A stretch of DNA of 64,000 nucleotides from Saccharibacter sp. EH611 (lineage in GTDB: Bacteria; Pseudomonadota; Alphaproteobacteria; Acetobacterales; Acetobacteraceae). Both the position numbers and the translations under genes were made by a program. The notes beneath the pieces were generated by a model. The model did not search any database, was not told the DNA's origin, and saw only the letters and a program-made list of their open reading frames with translations. Shown here one piece after another: positions 4,574-10,972 of the stretch (the stretch's first letter is position 1; the number at the start of each line of letters is the position of its first letter). The stretch lies in contig NZ_WVHP01000022.1 in the NCBI RefSeq assembly GCF_009834765.1, forward strand, positions 62,001 through 126,000, in the 5' to 3' direction.

Positions 4574-6001
4574 ATGAGGCCCCGTTTTATGTGTGCAGAC
4601 CTCCCTCCCCTAACGCCTATTTCAGGACGTAAACAGCCCGTTATTGCTCTTATTGGGTGTGATGGGAGTGGGAAATCGACGGTTGGCTCTGTGTTGTTGG
4701 AAGAAATGTCCAAACAGCGCCCGACGGCCTTTTGTCATTTAGGCAAGCAAGCGGGAAATTTGGAGCGTGCCCTTGGTCCTGTTCCATTCATCGGTTCGTT
4801 GGTCAGTAAAAAAGCGAAGAGTGAAAATAAGCGGATACAAACGGGGAAGAAAGCAACCTCTGTTGCCATTATCACAGGCTTTATTTTGTCCATGCGTCGC
4901 GTTGTGCGTTTCTCCAAAATGCGTTGGTGGCATCGGCGAGGCTATGCGATTTTAACGGATCGTTATCCCCAAAATAGCCTTCCCGGCCCTATGGATGGCC
5001 CGACCGTTGCTAATCTGAACTTTACCCAGCATTGGGCGGGGCTATTAAGTCGTTTTGAGCGTGTGTTTTATGCACGTATGGCTCGTTTTAAGCCTGACTT
5101 AGTGATCCGATTGCATGTAGATATTGAAACAGCATTGCAGCGTAAGCCGGATCATGTGCGTTTTAAGCTTGAGCGTAAAATTAGTGATCTGCCGAAGCTT
5201 AGTTTTAATGGCGCTCCTATCTTAGAGCTTGATTCCACACAACCACTGGAAACAGTGCTGACGCACGCCAAAGAGGCTGTGGATCAGGTCTTGTCTCTCT
5301 ATCCAGCACCAGAATCTCAGCGCGAAGGGGTTCTTGTTTCTCTTGTCGGGTGTGATGGGAGTGGCAAATCGAGCTTAAGCGCGGATCTCGTAAAGTGCTT
5401 GGGGCGGATGCGCCCCACACTGTACGGCTATTTAGGGCTTGGTTCTGGTGACCTTGGCCGTCGTATCGGAACATGGCCGCTTATTGGGCCGTGGCTCGAA
5501 GGAAAGCTGACAAAGAAGGCAAAAAAGACACGAACAAAGGGAGAGAAAATTCCCGGTTTAATCACGGCCTTGGTTGTCTTCGGGTTTTCGTTGCTACGCT
5601 ATAAGCGGTTTCTTCACGTTAAAAAGGCCGTTGAGCATGGTCATTTTGTCATTACGGATCGCTATCCCCAAGATGAGATCCCTGGGCAATGTGATGGGCC
5701 TGGTTTGTCCGCCGCGCAGACGAATAATCCGATTATCCGTCTATTAGCGCGGATAGAGCGACGCTTGTATCAGAAGATCGCGGCTTATCGTCCTGATCTT
5801 GTGGTTGTTTTAGATGTTGACGTGGATACAGCGCTCAGCCGTAAGCCCGATCATGACCGGGACGCACTCCAGACCAAAATCGAGCTTATGCCTCAGCTTA
5901 CTTTTGGAGGAGCAGAGTGCGTTCATGTGGATGCGCGGCAGGCGTATTTGGCTGTGAAAGAGGATATTGTTGCGCAGCTACGCAAAAAGCGCCTGATTTA
6001 A
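4574..6001 (+). CDS. Tandem thymidylate-kinase-like protein (two P-loop kinase domains in one chain)
   Basis: 475 residues consisting of two clearly homologous kinase domains. Domain 1 has Walker A GCDGSGKST (residues 28-36) and DRYPQ (D129-R130-Y131). Domain 2 has GCDGSGKSS (259-267) and DRYPQ (D362-R363-Y364). Both end in the same pattern, TALxRKPDH (TALQRKPDH and TALSRKPDH), then K-I-x3-P-x-L-x-F-x-G-A. The DRY and Arg-rich lid motifs are those of thymidylate-kinase-like P-loop kinases, which phosphorylate nucleotides or related phosphorylated acceptors. Each domain also carries an insert with a short hydrophobic stretch (IITGFILSM, LVVFGFSLL) not expected in housekeeping dTMP kinase, so the substrate is probably different. 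An alternative ATG at 4589 has GAGG upstream and may be the true start. It converges on the CHAD-like gene with a 4 bp overlap. Confidence 0.8.
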   Translation: MRPRFMCADLPPLTPISGRKQPVIALIGCDGSGKSTVGSVLLEEMSKQRPTAFCHLGKQAGNLERALGPVPFIGSLVSKKAKSENKRIQTGKKATSVAIITGFILSMRRVVRFSKMRWWHRRGYAILTDRYPQNSLPGPMDGPTVANLNFTQHWAGLLSRFERVFYARMARFKPDLVIRLHVDIETALQRKPDHVRFKLERKISDLPKLSFNGAPILELDSTQPLETVLTHAKEAVDQVLSLYPAPESQREGVLVSLVGCDGSGKSSLSADLVKCLGRMRPTLYGYLGLGSGDLGRRIGTWPLIGPWLEGKLTKKAKKTRTKGEKIPGLITALVVFGFSLLRYKRFLHVKKAVEHGHFVITDRYPQDEIPGQCDGPGLSAAQTNNPIIRLLARIERRLYQKIAAYRPDLVVVLDVDVDTALSRKPDHDRDALQTKIELMPQLTFGGAECVHVDARQAYLAVKEDIVAQLRKKRLI

Positions 6002-6873
6002 TCAGGCGTTAACGCTTTAGAACGGGTGAGGAAAACCGTAATACGTTTGACAATCTCACGGGGGGCTTCAAAGCGGTCACGACGGTAATGTTGTGTGCCG
6101 TTGAGTTTCTTTTCGATCAAATCATCATGCATATCGCCCATCATGCCGTTAATGGTGGCGAGATATTCTGAGAGTTGGTTGAGAGCGTCGCTTGGGCGAA
6201 TGGTTCGTAGTGAATCATTATAAGCGACGCGCCGACTAATGATCTTGCGCATGATATGAAACTCATGGCCTGTTGTTGCATCCAGTGTTTCCATAAGCTG
6301 TGCGAGCTTAGCGTTCTGTTTGTGCTGATAAGCGAGCACGCCTTCTGGGCTATCTAGACGTAACGTAAGAAGCGATAGCTGGATGAGCCAATAAAAGGCT
6401 GGGGTTAAGGCAACCCAAAGGAAGCAGCCATTGATGAATGTGCTGAGACGTTGGTTGTTTTTAAAAGCGTCCTGCATATTGCCCATAATAATGGTGACGA
6501 TATGCAAAATGAGTGGATAACGATGTGCTTTACTGAGGTTCGCGCAGGCAAAGCGCATATGTTTGAACTTGGCCCGTGCGTATTTAAAGGCTCGTTGTTC
6601 ATCAACAGATGCATGGCCTGTGCATGCGATGCGTTTTGTGAGCGCTCGAAATTGCGGACGATGAACGCCAAACTCGAGCAGTTGCCAGCAGAGACGATAA
6701 TTCTCCATAATTTCTTCAGAAGTTGAGCGAGGCAGGACGTCTGAAGGAAGGGGCGTGTTGGGATGGGGAACGTCGTCAAGCAAGACATAGTTGAAGACAG
6801 TCTCAAGGGATTCTTGAGAACAGCGAGGGTTCTGTAAGCGTTTAAGGCGGGCAGGAAGGGAAAAAGGCAACAT
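5998..6873 (-). CDS. CHAD-like helical protein of unknown function
   Basis: About 291 residues from ATG 6873, or 295 from GTG 6885, which directly abuts the flippase stop. No signal peptide. The protein is helical and rich in His, Arg and Lys. A stretch near residue 203 (HEFHIMRKIISRRVAYNDSL) followed by LSEYLATINGMMGDMHDD has the H-x3-RK-x4-R-x2-Y ... L-x-x-x-N-x-x-x-G-x-x-x-D spacing of the CHAD domain, whose known members bind polyphosphate. An earlier segment (ARAKFKHMRFACANL ... MGNMQDAF) looks like a weaker second copy. This is a pattern match by eye, not a confirmed domain. It is the last gene of the minus-strand operon that starts with the PLP protein. Confidence 0.6.
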   Translation of the reverse strand: MLPFSLPARLKRLQNPRCSQESLETVFNYVLLDDVPHPNTPLPSDVLPRSTSEEIMENYRLCWQLLEFGVHRPQFRALTKRIACTGHASVDEQRAFKYARAKFKHMRFACANLSKAHRYPLILHIVTIIMGNMQDAFKNNQRLSTFINGCFLWVALTPAFYWLIQLSLLTLRLDSPEGVLAYQHKQNAKLAQLMETLDATTGHEFHIMRKIISRRVAYNDSLRTIRPSDALNQLSEYLATINGMMGDMHDDLIEKKLNGTQHYRRDRFEAPREIVKRITVFLTRSKALTPD

Positions 6874-6885
6874 ACTCACGAACAC

Positions 6886-8223
6886 CTAAAGAGCTTCTTC
6901 TCGTTCATGGGGAGGAATAATATGGCGACGACGGATGAAGGTGGCCATCGTTAGGATAAAGGTCAGGAAGGTGAGCCATACCATGCCTAACGCATAAGCG
7001 AGGCCCGCTCCGTTAAGGCCGTAATGACGGCTCATAAAGATCAGGAACGGAATATAGCAGGTTACGCTGATCAGTTGCACGACCATGATATATTTCGCCC
7101 GTCCTGCCGTATAGAGCACCCCTTCCATCGACAAGCCCGCCATAAAGAAAATAAGCGCTGGGGACATCCAGGCCATCAGGGGAGCGGCGCTGGCATAGCG
7201 ATGGCCAAAAAGACTAATCACAGGAGCGCCGCCGATATAGACGAGAGCCGTTGCGGCAACCCCAACGAGAGCGGAAAGAAGAGATGTGCGTAGAGCTAGT
7301 TTCCATGGCCGTATGGTGCGAGGGTCGAGGCGCACAACTTCTGGATAATAGCTTTTTTCAAGAAGTTTTGCTGGGCGTTGTACGGCATCAAGAAAGGTTA
7401 ACGCCAGCGTATACATACCAGAAGAGGCCGTCCCTAAAAGGCGACCAATGATGAGGTTACTGACAGGTTCCCAAGCTGTTTCGAGTAAGGTGGTGAGACT
7501 GGCTGTCCAGACAAACCCCCACATGCCTTTAGGCATGTGGCGAGCGGCTTCGAAAAGACTTGGTTTGAGAGCATCAAGCATCTTTCGACGTCGGAGTTCT
7601 ACGACGGCGCCTGCCCACATATAAAGCTGTCCTGCTAGGATTCCGGCATACCAAGCGAGGACAAAACCAGCTAATCCACCATGGAAGATCCACACAAAAA
7701 CACAGATGAGGGATCGGACAAAAGGAGTTGAGACCTGTTGGCGTGCGACGATATCAATACGGTCGAAAAGACGTAAGATCCCGTAAACACTAGAGGCGCC
7801 TATACCGGGGATGAGTGTGCAATAGAGCACGACAAGATGCTTATAACGGGCATGGATGCCAAGCTGATGACCAAAGAGAACCACGGCAATGATTCCGCCA
7901 ATCATCCCAACAAGCCCGGCGCTGACATCGAGTCCGACGGCGAGGCGAATAGCATTTTTAACGCGGTTCTTTTCCCCTTTCTGCCACGGTACCGATCCGT
8001 AATGCAGAACAACCTGCCACGATTGGAATTGCACAATGGCAGAGACGGATTCGATATAGGCCCCAATCATGGTGAGGGCCCCAAAGTCATGAGCGCTCAT
8101 GCCACGGCTGGCACAGGTAAGGGCGAGCAAGCCGAGCAAGGCCCCGATGAGTTTTCCTGACCCGAGCTTCCCCGTATTTTTCAGAATGGACGCAAAAAGA
8201 TCATCATGGAACCATTTTTTCAT
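6886..8223 (-). CDS. Lipopolysaccharide/oligosaccharide flippase-like membrane protein (MOP superfamily)
   Basis: 445 residues with about 12 hydrophobic segments, starting MKKWFHDDLFASILKNTGK. Features typical of Wzx/RfbX-type exporters are the N-terminal GKLIGALLGLLALTCASRGM, a central GRLLGTASSGMYTLALTFLDAVQRPAKLL and the repeated two-helix layout ending FLTFILTMATFIRRR. Such proteins flip undecaprenyl-linked glycans across the inner membrane. I use the ATG at 8223, which overlaps the upstream phosphatase stop as ATGA. An upstream start at 8274 is possible but would overlap more. Its setting in an operon next to dTDP-rhamnose genes supports a role in surface glycan export. Confidence 0.8.
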   Translation of the reverse strand: MKKWFHDDLFASILKNTGKLGSGKLIGALLGLLALTCASRGMSAHDFGALTMIGAYIESVSAIVQFQSWQVVLHYGSVPWQKGEKNRVKNAIRLAVGLDVSAGLVGMIGGIIAVVLFGHQLGIHARYKHLVVLYCTLIPGIGASSVYGILRLFDRIDIVARQQVSTPFVRSLICVFVWIFHGGLAGFVLAWYAGILAGQLYMWAGAVVELRRRKMLDALKPSLFEAARHMPKGMWGFVWTASLTTLLETAWEPVSNLIIGRLLGTASSGMYTLALTFLDAVQRPAKLLEKSYYPEVVRLDPRTIRPWKLALRTSLLSALVGVAATALVYIGGAPVISLFGHRYASAAPLMAWMSPALIFFMAGLSMEGVLYTAGRAKYIMVVQLISVTCYIPFLIFMSRHYGLNGAGLAYALGMVWLTFLTFILTMATFIRRRHIIPPHEREEAL

Positions 8224-8939
8224 ACAGTTTTTTCCCCGAAATCGGGAAGAGCATTTACGCTGATCACGCGCCAATAGCCAGCAATATGCTCAATGATGGA
8301 TACAGAAAGATTTTGGATGGTCAAATGTAGGGCCATATCGGGTGAACATTGTAAAGCATGTGCGAGAGCCATACGAATGGCTCCGCCATGGCTGAGGACA
8401 ACCATGTCACGTCCTGTATGGGTGTGCGCTAGACGCTCTAAACATGAACCAATGCGCTGTTTGACCTGATCCATACTTTCTCCTTCTGGAGGCGTTTCAT
8501 CTGCCGCAATAGACCAGAAAGGGTGCGAGGGTTTACTAAGGAGTGTTGGAAAGGTTGTGTGAGGCTCCCCACTCCATTGCCCCATTGATTGCTCGGTAAA
8601 GTCCGCATCTGTCACGATTGGCGTGGAGAAATGGCCTTCTTTTTGGATTGTCAGGCCTGTTTGATAGGCGCGTTGGAGAGGTGAGCTAAACCATAAGGCA
8701 TCATGTGGCAGGCGACGCGCAAGAGACGCGTAGGCTGGTTGATGGTCTTGTAAAGCGCGGGGGCAGAGCGGGACATCCAGTGTGCCATACATTGTGCGTC
8801 GCGCATCTTCCTCGACCACGCCATGACGGACAAGCCAAAAGCGCGTTGTTCCCGAAGGGAGAGTAGGCCCATCAATGAAATGAGCTTGCGGGTCTAAAGC
8901 TGGGCGGGTGTTCTGTGTCAAACGTGATGCCTTCATCAT
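8220..8939 (-). CDS. Histidine phosphatase family protein (phosphoglycerate mutase-like)
   Basis: 239 residues. The catalytic RHG motif is in FWLVRHGVVEEDARRTMYG (about residues 33-51), with the second conserved region SSPLQRAYQTG (Arg) and the C-terminal VVLSHGGAIRMALAHAL carrying the second catalytic His. Glu in FTEQSMGQWSGE fits the general acid. It is expected to remove phosphate from a small metabolite in the cytoplasm, as in the CobC/GpmB branch, but the substrate is unknown. Start and stop overlap the neighbours by 4 bases each (ATGA), so it belongs tightly to the PLP-phosphatase-flippase-CHAD operon. An N-terminal extension of about 30 residues precedes the core. Confidence 0.87.
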   Translation of the reverse strand: MMKASRLTQNTRPALDPQAHFIDGPTLPSGTTRFWLVRHGVVEEDARRTMYGTLDVPLCPRALQDHQPAYASLARRLPHDALWFSSPLQRAYQTGLTIQKEGHFSTPIVTDADFTEQSMGQWSGEPHTTFPTLLSKPSHPFWSIAADETPPEGESMDQVKQRIGSCLERLAHTHTGRDMVVLSHGGAIRMALAHALQCSPDMALHLTIQNLSVSIIEHIAGYWRVISVNALPDFGEKTV

Positions 8940-10972
8940 GGCTGTGATAGAGGCGCATAGCGAGGAATGGGGTCAGCTTCAAGAAGAGTAGTCCAATGAC
9001 GGAGAATAAGCTGCAATTTTTTCAACACACGCTGAACATCACGGCATTCACGCGCCATGCGTTGCGTGCTGTTGAGATGGCTATGAGAGGGCTCGCCTGA
9101 AACAAGACGCGCACCGGCACAGAAACGCAAAGCCCCCGCTGGGCTTCTAAGAGCGCTATGGGCTACAGGCACGGGTTGGCCGAGGACGCAAAACAGGGAG
9201 GGTTCCTCATCAGGTTCGGAAATCCATGGGCTGAGATCGGCATTGAGCCAGCGATGGAGGCGGCGTGCGTCTTCGAGGGACAGCGGGTGGTTGGGTGTTG
9301 TCGGGTCACGGACGAGGAAGGATAGAATGGTTGGAATACCATCCCATAGAGGGTCATTGCCGAGGGATGGTGGGGGGATTAAGTCTATCTGCGGGATATG
9401 GTCTAAGGCTTGTTTGACATAATCCATAAAATGGTCAAGCCGCGCGCGGATGGTTTCATTGGAATGGGCGAAGAGCGCGTCCATTTCTGCCAAAGCGGCT
9501 TCCCACCGGAATGCGAGGCCAAGATTATACCCTTCGCTGAGGGCGCTTTCATCGGCATGATCGGGCCATTCTGAACGATGGCTGTAATGGCGCAGTCCGG
9601 TGGGAAGTGATGTATGGCGAAGCTGGTCAACAAGGAAGCTGGGGACAAGGAGCGCCCCGCAGAATGGAGGGCCGGTAAAGAATTTGGAGCCGGTCAGCAT
9701 CACCATCATGCCGCGTTGAACCCATTGCGTCATGCGGCTAGGGCTGACACGGGCCTGACACGCATCAACGACGACGGTGATATGCTCGCCGAGCTGTTCC
9801 ATAAGTTCGTCGACGATATGAATGGAGGGGGCGACCATGCCCGTTTTCGATTGATCTAAGCGATGAAGAAGAACATGTCGTCCCTTCTCTGCTTCTTGGA
9901 GAGCAATCTGGCGGCATTCTTGGTCAATCTCTTCACGTGTGCGGCTTTTTCCGTCTTCAGTGCGGATAGCAATGGGAATAAGCGTGATGTCTTGAGGGAA
10001 ACCGTTAATCGGTTCGCCTTTATGCACATGGTCTGTGCAGGCACTGTCGGAGGCAAAATGTCGCCCCTGTGCGGCGAGTGGTACGCCACTGCCTGTTTCA
10101 TCTGGGGCAATGAGTAAGGTGCTTATGGGGCGGGAGGTGCGTATTGCAACCAGACTTAAGGCGGCAAGCTCGCAATCCGTTCCAGAGGCGTTGACAATAA
10201 CTTGGTCAACAGGGAGGCCGATATGGCGGCCAATGCGTTCTCTGACGGATACAAGGCAGTGATGTTGGACATCGTGAGCGTTATGATTGGACAGAAGCGC
10301 TATCATCATGGCCCGGCGTGCTTTTTCGGCACCGCCAAAGCCTCTTTCAGATAAGGAGGAAGCGGTTGATGAGCCAAAAGAGACCGCCCAAGGGCGAGGG
10401 CGATGCGAGCATGCGTAACGGTTAAGCCCCGTTTTTGTATCGACAGCGAGGCGGGAATCCCCTCCTCCACCCATCAATGTTTCCGTTGGCGCGAGAAGAG
10501 ACCAGAGAGCCATAACGGTCTGAACAGCGTCGTGGCGTTCAGCTGCGCTGGGCAGTGCCTTATCAGGAAGAAAGGCGCAGAGATCGGCGATCCGATGCAA
10601 AAGAGCGTCTTTATCAGGATGAGCTGAAGCAAAAGGAGAGAGAAAGAGCGGAAGTGGACAGGCGTCAGCAACATCAAGCAAATGGAACTGTGCGGCAATG
10701 CGTGCGCTGGCAAAGCTGGCGACCATCGGGGGGATACCAGCCTCAATGAGATAAAAAAGCTCAATCCCGTAGCGGATCAAGGTTGGAGATAATGTGTCAA
10801 AGCGTGGACTAGAGCCGCCAAGATGCAGGATGGCACCATGGTCTGTGTAGCGTAAGGAAAGGCCCATTTTTAGGTGGAGGTCACAGTCAATCTGAAGGCC
10901 TTCTGACATGACGAGAAGATCCGGTCTTTGAAGAACCTTTCTCAGCCTGGCTTCCAGATCGTCACGCTGCAT
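8936..10972 (-). CDS. Large PLP-dependent fold-type-I protein with N-terminal extension
   Basis: 678 residues. A class-V aminotransferase-like core starts near residue 195. NASGTDCELAALSLVAI (261-277) resembles the phosphate-binding SGTEANE loop. VVVDACQARVSP (D403) fits the Asp that pairs with the pyridine nitrogen. MLTGSKFFTGPPFCGALLVP places the Schiff-base lysine at K430. Residues 1-190 are an extra, mostly helical domain I do not recognise, and residues 440-678 contain the usual small domain. Reaction unknown: it could be an aminotransferase, lyase or decarboxylase acting on an amino acid or amino sugar. It is the first gene of the minus-strand operon, with GGAAAGGA upstream of its ATG. 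It is divergent from rfbB across a 224 bp gap. Confidence 0.75.
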   Translation of the reverse strand: MQRDDLEARLRKVLQRPDLLVMSEGLQIDCDLHLKMGLSLRYTDHGAILHLGGSSPRFDTLSPTLIRYGIELFYLIEAGIPPMVASFASARIAAQFHLLDVADACPLPLFLSPFASAHPDKDALLHRIADLCAFLPDKALPSAAERHDAVQTVMALWSLLAPTETLMGGGGDSRLAVDTKTGLNRYACSHRPRPWAVSFGSSTASSLSERGFGGAEKARRAMMIALLSNHNAHDVQHHCLVSVRERIGRHIGLPVDQVIVNASGTDCELAALSLVAIRTSRPISTLLIAPDETGSGVPLAAQGRHFASDSACTDHVHKGEPINGFPQDITLIPIAIRTEDGKSRTREEIDQECRQIALQEAEKGRHVLLHRLDQSKTGMVAPSIHIVDELMEQLGEHITVVVDACQARVSPSRMTQWVQRGMMVMLTGSKFFTGPPFCGALLVPSFLVDQLRHTSLPTGLRHYSHRSEWPDHADESALSEGYNLGLAFRWEAALAEMDALFAHSNETIRARLDHFMDYVKQALDHIPQIDLIPPPSLGNDPLWDGIPTILSFLVRDPTTPNHPLSLEDARRLHRWLNADLSPWISEPDEEPSLFCVLGQPVPVAHSALRSPAGALRFCAGARLVSGEPSHSHLNSTQRMARECRDVQRVLKKLQLILRHWTTLLEADPIPRYAPLSQP

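Follow-up and report, generated by a model that had tools for sequence, protein, structure and literature searches.

A 64,000-nucleotide stretch of the Saccharibacter sp. EH611 genome (contig NZ_WVHP01000022.1, positions 62,001 to 126,000; hereafter the window) carries a compact set of five genes encoding a double kinase (KIN2), a CHAD-like protein (CHADL), a flippase, a histidine phosphatase and a pyridoxal phosphate (PLP)-type protein. These five genes are two units rather than a single pathway. The conserved core is made up of the kinase, CHADL and the flippase and is strongly linked to serine palmitoyltransferase (SPT), the first sphingolipid enzyme; the PLP protein and the histidine phosphatase are an older acetic-acid-bacterial pair. 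We consider it likely that the core is a dedicated phosphorylation-and-flipping branch of the bacterial sphingolipid pathway acting on the head group, the chemistry of this module being what we infer. The initial annotation of this DNA recognized an unusual conserved, envelope-related set in which kinases occur together with a flippase, and this was borne out. Its assignment of all five genes to one pathway for an amino-containing surface-polymer block near rhamnose genes was not supported, as the kinases and CHADL follow SPT and not the rhamnose genes.

Linkage of the core to serine palmitoyltransferase

Relatives of CHADL were collected by scanning one genome per species across 84,980 species with motifs from a CHADL alignment. 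Ninety-four relatives were confirmed, and the best 80 were kept as loci with flanks of up to 10 kb per side. They occur in Acetobacteraceae, Zymomonas, Sphingomonas, Azotobacter, Enterobacterales, a Desulfuromusa metagenome-assembled genome (MAG) and others. An SPT was present in the genome for all 71 CHADL loci examined, in the same cluster for 32, through a genome search for 38 and as two pieces for one (L079, L082, L083, L084, L086, L088, L089, L093 and L129 were left out of this check). The 32 in-cluster enzymes share at least 56% identity with the Escherichia coli SPT. When genomes were searched, SPT scored above the NCBIfam cut-off in 38 of 39 with CHADL vs 2 of 14 controls, and in the 39th the enzyme was split in two pieces on two contigs. 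The best SPT scores of 150 Acetobacteraceae genomes form two groups, at least 359 bits and at most 258 bits, giving 48 genomes with SPT, and these include all 11 that carry CHADL (p 1.5e-6 if independent).

The kinases and CHADL are thus accompanied by SPT in all genomes examined, and 32 of the 80 loci hold them and SPT in one cluster, mostly along with further ceramide genes and a second LptF/LptG pair. Kinase genes are linked to CHADL in 68 loci and lie elsewhere in the genomes of the other 12 (13 of 13 genomes searched, the thirteenth being that of L116). The flippase is linked in 60 loci, in 55 of them within 100 bp, and LptF/LptG genes are found in 35. DgkA-like and PAP2-like genes each occur in nine loci, with one DgkA-like and two PAP2 representatives checked in Pfam. 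Within the Acetobacteraceae, SPT is present in 41 of 44 flippase-positive genomes, and in 15, by coordinates, spt and a flippase homologue are no more than about 12 kb apart. For six of these, none of them with CHADL, the stretch was read, and the flippase homologue forms a single run with acpR-spt; in four, aasR and one further gene come in between. A PAP2 phosphatase gene adjoins CHADL in Commensalibacter (L119, L128, L133, L152), at the position held by the flippase in many other genera. Two CHADL genes lie near each other in a gammaproteobacterial MAG (L117), and Pluralibacter gergoviae and Carnimonas nigrificans have two CHADL loci per genome (L105 and L123; L116 and L145).

The window genome encodes an SPT of 600.5 bits (NCBIfam cut-off 500). 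Its spt locus has aasR-acpR-spt and after them a 313-residue protein lacking any Pfam match, a lipid kinase of the DAGK_cat type (53.2 bits) roughly 1 kb away from spt, and a metallophosphoesterase. Further along come LptF and LptG, a fatty acid hydroxylase, proteins with NTP_transf_3 and GINT1_N matches and a member of the inositol-monophosphatase family. The GINT1_N and inositol-monophosphatase-family proteins (L164, 14828-16643) perhaps point to a head group that bears a sugar or inositol. A CerS (YghO) homologue with 33% identity is found at G000:C18; CerR gave no match in the stretch L164, the whole genome not having been searched for it. We also considered the module kinases as substitutes for a missing ceramide kinase, for which there is no need in the window genome given the DAGK_cat gene beside spt. 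The presence of DAGK_cat genes was rejected as a discriminator, since they were found in 41 of 44 genomes by a search that mixes CpgB-type with other DAGK_cat kinases.

In E. coli the homologues are the kinases YghT, YghS and YghR, the flippase YghQ and, for CHADL, the product of an unnamed gene annotated as hypothetical. The annotated order is yghT, yghS, the third kinase, the flippase, CHADL, ytfJ, lptF, lptG, spt, acp, an epimerase-type gene (cerR), a fatty acyl-AMP ligase gene (aasR) and yghO, with the ceramide gene names taken from the available text of PMC9386255 and PMC11324152. Among 5426 complete E. coli genomes, 4042 cover a 9-kb cluster query to 80% or more, 4103 match CHADL and 4088 match SPT. 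About three quarters of complete E. coli genomes are thereby indicated to have a ceramide cluster that includes dedicated kinases, a flippase and export permeases. The K-12 strain MG1655 retains yghT, yghS, yghR, a shortened yghQ and yghO. An IS5 element lies between yghO and the shortened yghQ (L196, 2147-3341; NC_000913.3, 3130146-3131340), at the position occupied in other E. coli by CHADL, ytfJ, lptF, lptG, spt, acp, cerR and the ligase gene, which leaves yghR, yghS, yghT and yghO orphaned. The association offers a likely pathway for yghQ, yghR, yghS and yghT, K-12 genes left as unknowns, and for a conserved protein without a Pfam family.

No paper assigning the kinases or CHADL to sphingolipids was found in the literature covered, subscription papers and most preprints being outside the search. 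The accessible parts of three papers that mention yghQ, yghR, yghS or yghT draw no sphingolipid link; they concern yghQ variants in chlorhexidine-adapted K-12 (PMC8170033), a silkworm mutant screen (PMC9278758) and a list of inversions in Shigella sonnei (PMC12795559). The question is directly testable because E. coli BL21 carries the ceramide genes (PMC9386255).

The kinases, CHADL and the flippase

The initial annotation had described a protein of two thymidylate-kinase-like domains, and KIN2 indeed has two full Walker A motifs (residues 28 and 259). It matches Pfam Thymidylate_kin with 37.5 bits (cut-off 27), and an AF2 model of its C half (pLDDT 92.5) found thymidylate kinases as its top PDB matches; fold, Walker A and DR motif all agree with this family. 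KIN2 falls below the dTMP kinase equivalog TIGR00041 (52.3 vs 83.25 bits). A FastTree phylogeny of 122 domains with midpoint root (20 near-duplicate loci and pieces under 180 residues left out) groups the N half (about residues 13-242) with YghT and the C half (residues 243-475) with YghS and YghR, with a support of 100 on the separating branch. At least one kinase from each side of the tree was present in 44 of 52 loci, the window counted as one. Among the loci read, there are mostly two kinases in alpha-proteobacteria and three in Enterobacterales. The Walker A, DRYPQ and RKPDH motifs and a lysine are conserved in 55 kinase rows from both sides of the tree, and of 166 domains of at least 180 residues only one, which is truncated, lacks Walker A. 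The module kinases thus share fold, Walker A and DRY motif with dTMP kinase and differ from it in being paired paralogues with DRYPQ..DGP and RKPDH motifs.

CHADL yielded nothing useful in Pfam, NCBIfam or PDB sequence searches, and Pfam CHAD (PF05235) had no match in the window protein, in the genome or, at E 10, in 11 members of the family. The "CHAD-like" label of the initial annotation is nevertheless supported by the fold, though Pfam is silent. With an AF2 model of pLDDT 93.9, the best VIA-align rows over 219-225 residues were CHAD structures (6qv5, Z 13.2; 6qva, 12.8; 6qv7, 12.6; 3e0s, 12.1), followed by PptA, presumably a CHAD protein, at 11.2, ygiF at 9.2 and the next row at 8.3; by the tool's own caveat, helical bundles with Z under about 13 may reflect a common arrangement. 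The CHAD-type fold is supported because a clear gap in Z separates the CHAD rows from the others, and the rows below CHAD, PptA and ygiF, which reach a Z of about 8 at most and comprise GPCR fusions and further helical proteins, were treated as noise. Foldseek gave 6qv5 a probability of 0.95 and 6qva 0.91, with all other shown rows at most 0.16 and a best E of just 0.11. An hhalign comparison with 20 CHAD sequences was only suggestive (P 0.0013, probability 18.6; reversed control, P 0.25). We therefore call CHADL a predicted CHAD-fold protein of two four-helix bundles outside PF05235.

A 58-row alignment of CHADL showed invariant basic, His and Asp residues, with H109, H121, D139, H210, H253, D254 and Y267 among the invariant positions. 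As matched by eye, K101/R104/K108/H109 and H210/R213/K214 repeat a pattern like His29/Arg32/Arg36, which one CHAD protein requires for polyphosphate binding (PMC6537752, available text). CHADL therefore resembles the CHAD proteins 6qv5 and 6qva in being helical with two basic HxxR/KxxR-type stretches (by eye), and differs from them as a stand-alone family of 12-13% identity, below Pfam detection and tied to SPT.

These features admit a role that is sphingolipid-related but regulatory or protective, in which the kinases and CHADL would sense polyphosphate or nucleotide state and control the synthesis or transport of ceramide lipids rather than build a head group. CHAD domains bind polyphosphate (PMC6537752), CHADL combines a CHAD-type fold and conserved basic residues, and the loci read show no constant glycosyl- or phospho-alcohol transferase close to CHADL. 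We regard this role as unlikely, as the kinase motifs are kept in the 55 rows from both sides of the tree, and the adjoining flippase in 55 of 80 loci and LptF/LptG in 35 fit synthesis and transport.

Also unlikely, in our view, is that the kinases produce an activated nucleotide or sugar phosphate donor for a separate head-group transferase, with CHADL as that transferase or its partner. The thymidylate-kinase fold with its DRYPQ and RKPDH motifs and the NTP_transf_3 protein in the spt locus of the window genome agree with this idea, and the invariant residues of CHADL look richer than a pure binder may require. Against it, we know of no CHAD-fold enzyme. The third core member, the flippase, scored 34.6 bits with Polysacc_synt (PF01943), above the gathering score of 28.2.

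Organization of the locus and the PLP-phosphatase pair

All five open reading frames are present in the layout of the initial annotation, with its overlapping and abutting ends (Table 1). The four minus-strand genes converge on the double kinase with a 4-bp overlap, the 3' ends of KIN2 and CHADL having TTAA in common, and the flippase and CHADL genes abut. The overlap between the PLP and phosphatase genes is likewise 4 bp. The most likely start of the flippase is an ATG at 8223; it gives 445 residues, close to the length of its relatives, and a 4-bp overlap (ATGA) with the phosphatase stop. The adjoining rhamnose operon is complete, as had been claimed (rmlB-A-C-D, every gene above its NCBIfam cut-off). 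A Saccharibacter floricola contig (L077) is 93.4% identical to the window across 16.9 kb.

Table 1. The five genes of the locus, with positions in the window
Feature	Coordinates	Strand	Basis
KIN2, two fused thymidylate-kinase-fold P-loop kinases	4574..6001	+	Pfam Thymidylate_kin, two Walker A
CHADL, all-helical CHAD-like protein with predicted CHAD-type fold, without Pfam family	5998..6885	-	AF2 model, structure comparison
MOP-type flippase (YghQ homologue)	6886..8274	-	Pfam Polysacc_synt 34.6 bits
Histidine phosphatase, branch 1, widespread in Acetobacteraceae	8220..8939	-	His_Phos_1 144.1 bits
PLP-type protein, family not filed	8936..10972	-	Overlaps phosphatase gene; no family match

The arrangement is more than chance, because the order kinase, CHADL, flippase, phosphatase repeats in Saccharibacter, Bombella and other small-genome acetic acid bacteria and the core repeats across Proteobacteria. 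The initial annotation would have taken scattered homologues as refuting its reading; the core keeps its neighbourhood, while the PLP gene is partly scattered. Co-occurrence in Acetobacteraceae divides the set in the same way. CHADL is present in 11 of the 150 genomes, and the strong KIN2 matches are those same 11 (best E 6e-49 or better), while the PLP protein occurs in 41, of which just two, the window genome included, also have CHADL. The PLP gene is absent from 9 of the 11 CHADL genomes of the family and is found in 1 of the 80 CHADL loci.

The PLP gene often adjoins a histidine phosphatase gene; 20 of the best 30 PLP genomes have one on the same strand, no more than 350 bp downstream (by eye, among the matches listed). 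The phosphatase family was matched in 147 of 150 Acetobacteraceae and stands beside CHADL in 14 of 80 loci, all of Saccharibacter/Bombella type (L077-L090). The window's phosphatase scores below the alpha-ribazole phosphatase CobC equivalog TIGR03162 (99.4 vs 162.9 bits). The PLP protein had no Pfam, NCBIfam or PDB sequence match; it has conserved TGSK and DACQ stretches and, judging by such motifs, is a putative PLP fold type I protein. It was also considered as the SPT of the pathway and rejected, the true SPT being elsewhere in the genome and 9 of the 11 CHADL genomes of the family having no PLP gene. It is probably a passenger from the older pair, outside the sphingolipid module.

The neighbourhood also bears on the proposal that all five genes build a phosphorylated, amino-containing block of a rhamnose-linked surface polymer. 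The rmlBACD operon adjoins in the window and several relatives, the flippase is of MOP type, a GT4-type glycosyltransferase is found in 5 of 80 CHADL loci (one representative checked), and distant kinase relatives occur by eye in exopolysaccharide-type clusters, as described below. In Acetobacter sp. AN02 (G117), the PLP-phosphatase pair adjoins the rml operon and CHADL and three kinases lie on other contigs (L065-L067), and Bombella dulcis (L058) and Acetobacteraceae bacterium B3987 (L059) keep parAB-KIN-CHADL-flippase-phosphatase without an adjoining rml operon or PLP gene there. Because the former separates the PLP-phosphatase pair from the kinases and CHADL and the latter two keep the core without rml or PLP, the adjacency of the rml operon and the PLP gene looks like older synteny. 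As the core also tracks SPT across Proteobacteria and the PLP gene is so rare among CHADL loci, we consider the surface-polymer proposal highly improbable.

Proposed function and comparison with known sphingolipid systems

For the phosphorylation-and-flipping branch that we favor, ceramide made by the ceramide genes of the window genome would be phosphorylated by the DAGK_cat kinase or a DgkA-like protein. The two ancient paralogous thymidylate-kinase-fold kinases would then add phosphate to ceramide phosphate or to the head group, and the basic core of CHADL, by analogy of fold, may hold the phosphate-rich head group as a scaffold, a carrier or possibly an enzyme. On the basis of family and neighbourhood, the flippase would carry the lipid across the inner membrane and LptF2/LptG2 would send it outward, and the histidine phosphatase may trim it. 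A more specific version, which we consider very unlikely, is a sphingolipid with a di- or oligophosphate head group, in which ceramide phosphate would be extended by two or three steps of nucleoside monophosphate (NMP)-kinase type, with the CHAD-fold protein holding the chains, PAP2 or histidine phosphatase trimming them, and flipping and the second LptFG pair taking the lipid to the outer membrane. If this were true, most E. coli would carry its genes and laboratory K-12 would have lost them.

Several observations weigh against a sphingolipid role of the core. The spt locus of the window genome is on a different contig from the module, the flippase is not universally linked to CHADL (60 of 80 loci), and its Pfam family is a general polysaccharide one. 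The CHADL scan detects only genes with either of two short motifs, and unusual relatives may escape it. Counts within the Acetobacteraceae share ancestry and are not independent. The PLP gene is also linked to SPT, more weakly (22 of 41 genomes with the gene vs 26 of 109 without, p 0.0008), an association taken as shared ancestry that warns against over-reading these counts. As 37 of the 48 SPT-positive Acetobacteraceae are without CHADL, the module is optional and one of several possibilities. Distant kinase relatives (E 4e-23 to 1e-7) occur in G017, G067, G078 and G088, all without CHADL, and three such relatives, from large Acetobacteraceae genomes, lie by eye in exopolysaccharide-type clusters with asparagine-synthase- and Wzc-like neighbours. 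By eye, a kinase relative with an extra N-terminal stretch comes after Wzc-like and asparagine-synthase-like genes in large Acetobacteraceae genomes (L070, 6674-8317; L071, 7848-9383; L072, 6341-7921), followed in L070 and L071 by a second P-loop protein; this arrangement is possibly a separate exopolysaccharide system.

The closest known systems are the aasR-cerR-acpR-spt-cerS genes of E. coli BL21 and Caulobacter (PMC9386255, PMC11324152). They stand in the same cluster as the module in E. coli, and the window genome carries aasR-acpR-spt along with a CerS homologue. In their available text, these two papers treat ceramide synthesis and the Caulobacter head-group genes, without mention of the kinase and CHADL genes. 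The ceramide phosphoglycerate branch of Caulobacter, as described in the accessible parts of PMC11324152 and PMC10331486, comprises the ceramide kinase CpgB (CC_1160), CC_1161, CC_1159, CC_1158, CC_1153 and CC_1152, with CC_1166 as a potential flippase. It employs genes other than those of the module (PMC11324152): CpgB is a DAGK-type kinase and the module kinases have the thymidylate-kinase fold, and CHADL has no counterpart in the branch as described there. A sphingolipid flippase as such is thus not a new idea, CC_1166 having already been proposed in Caulobacter (PMC11324152). The likeness between the two branches lies in a phosphate-bearing sphingolipid, a second LptF/LptG pair and a proposed flippase (PMC11324152, PMC10331486), and the window genome adds to it a DAGK_cat kinase about 1 kb from spt.

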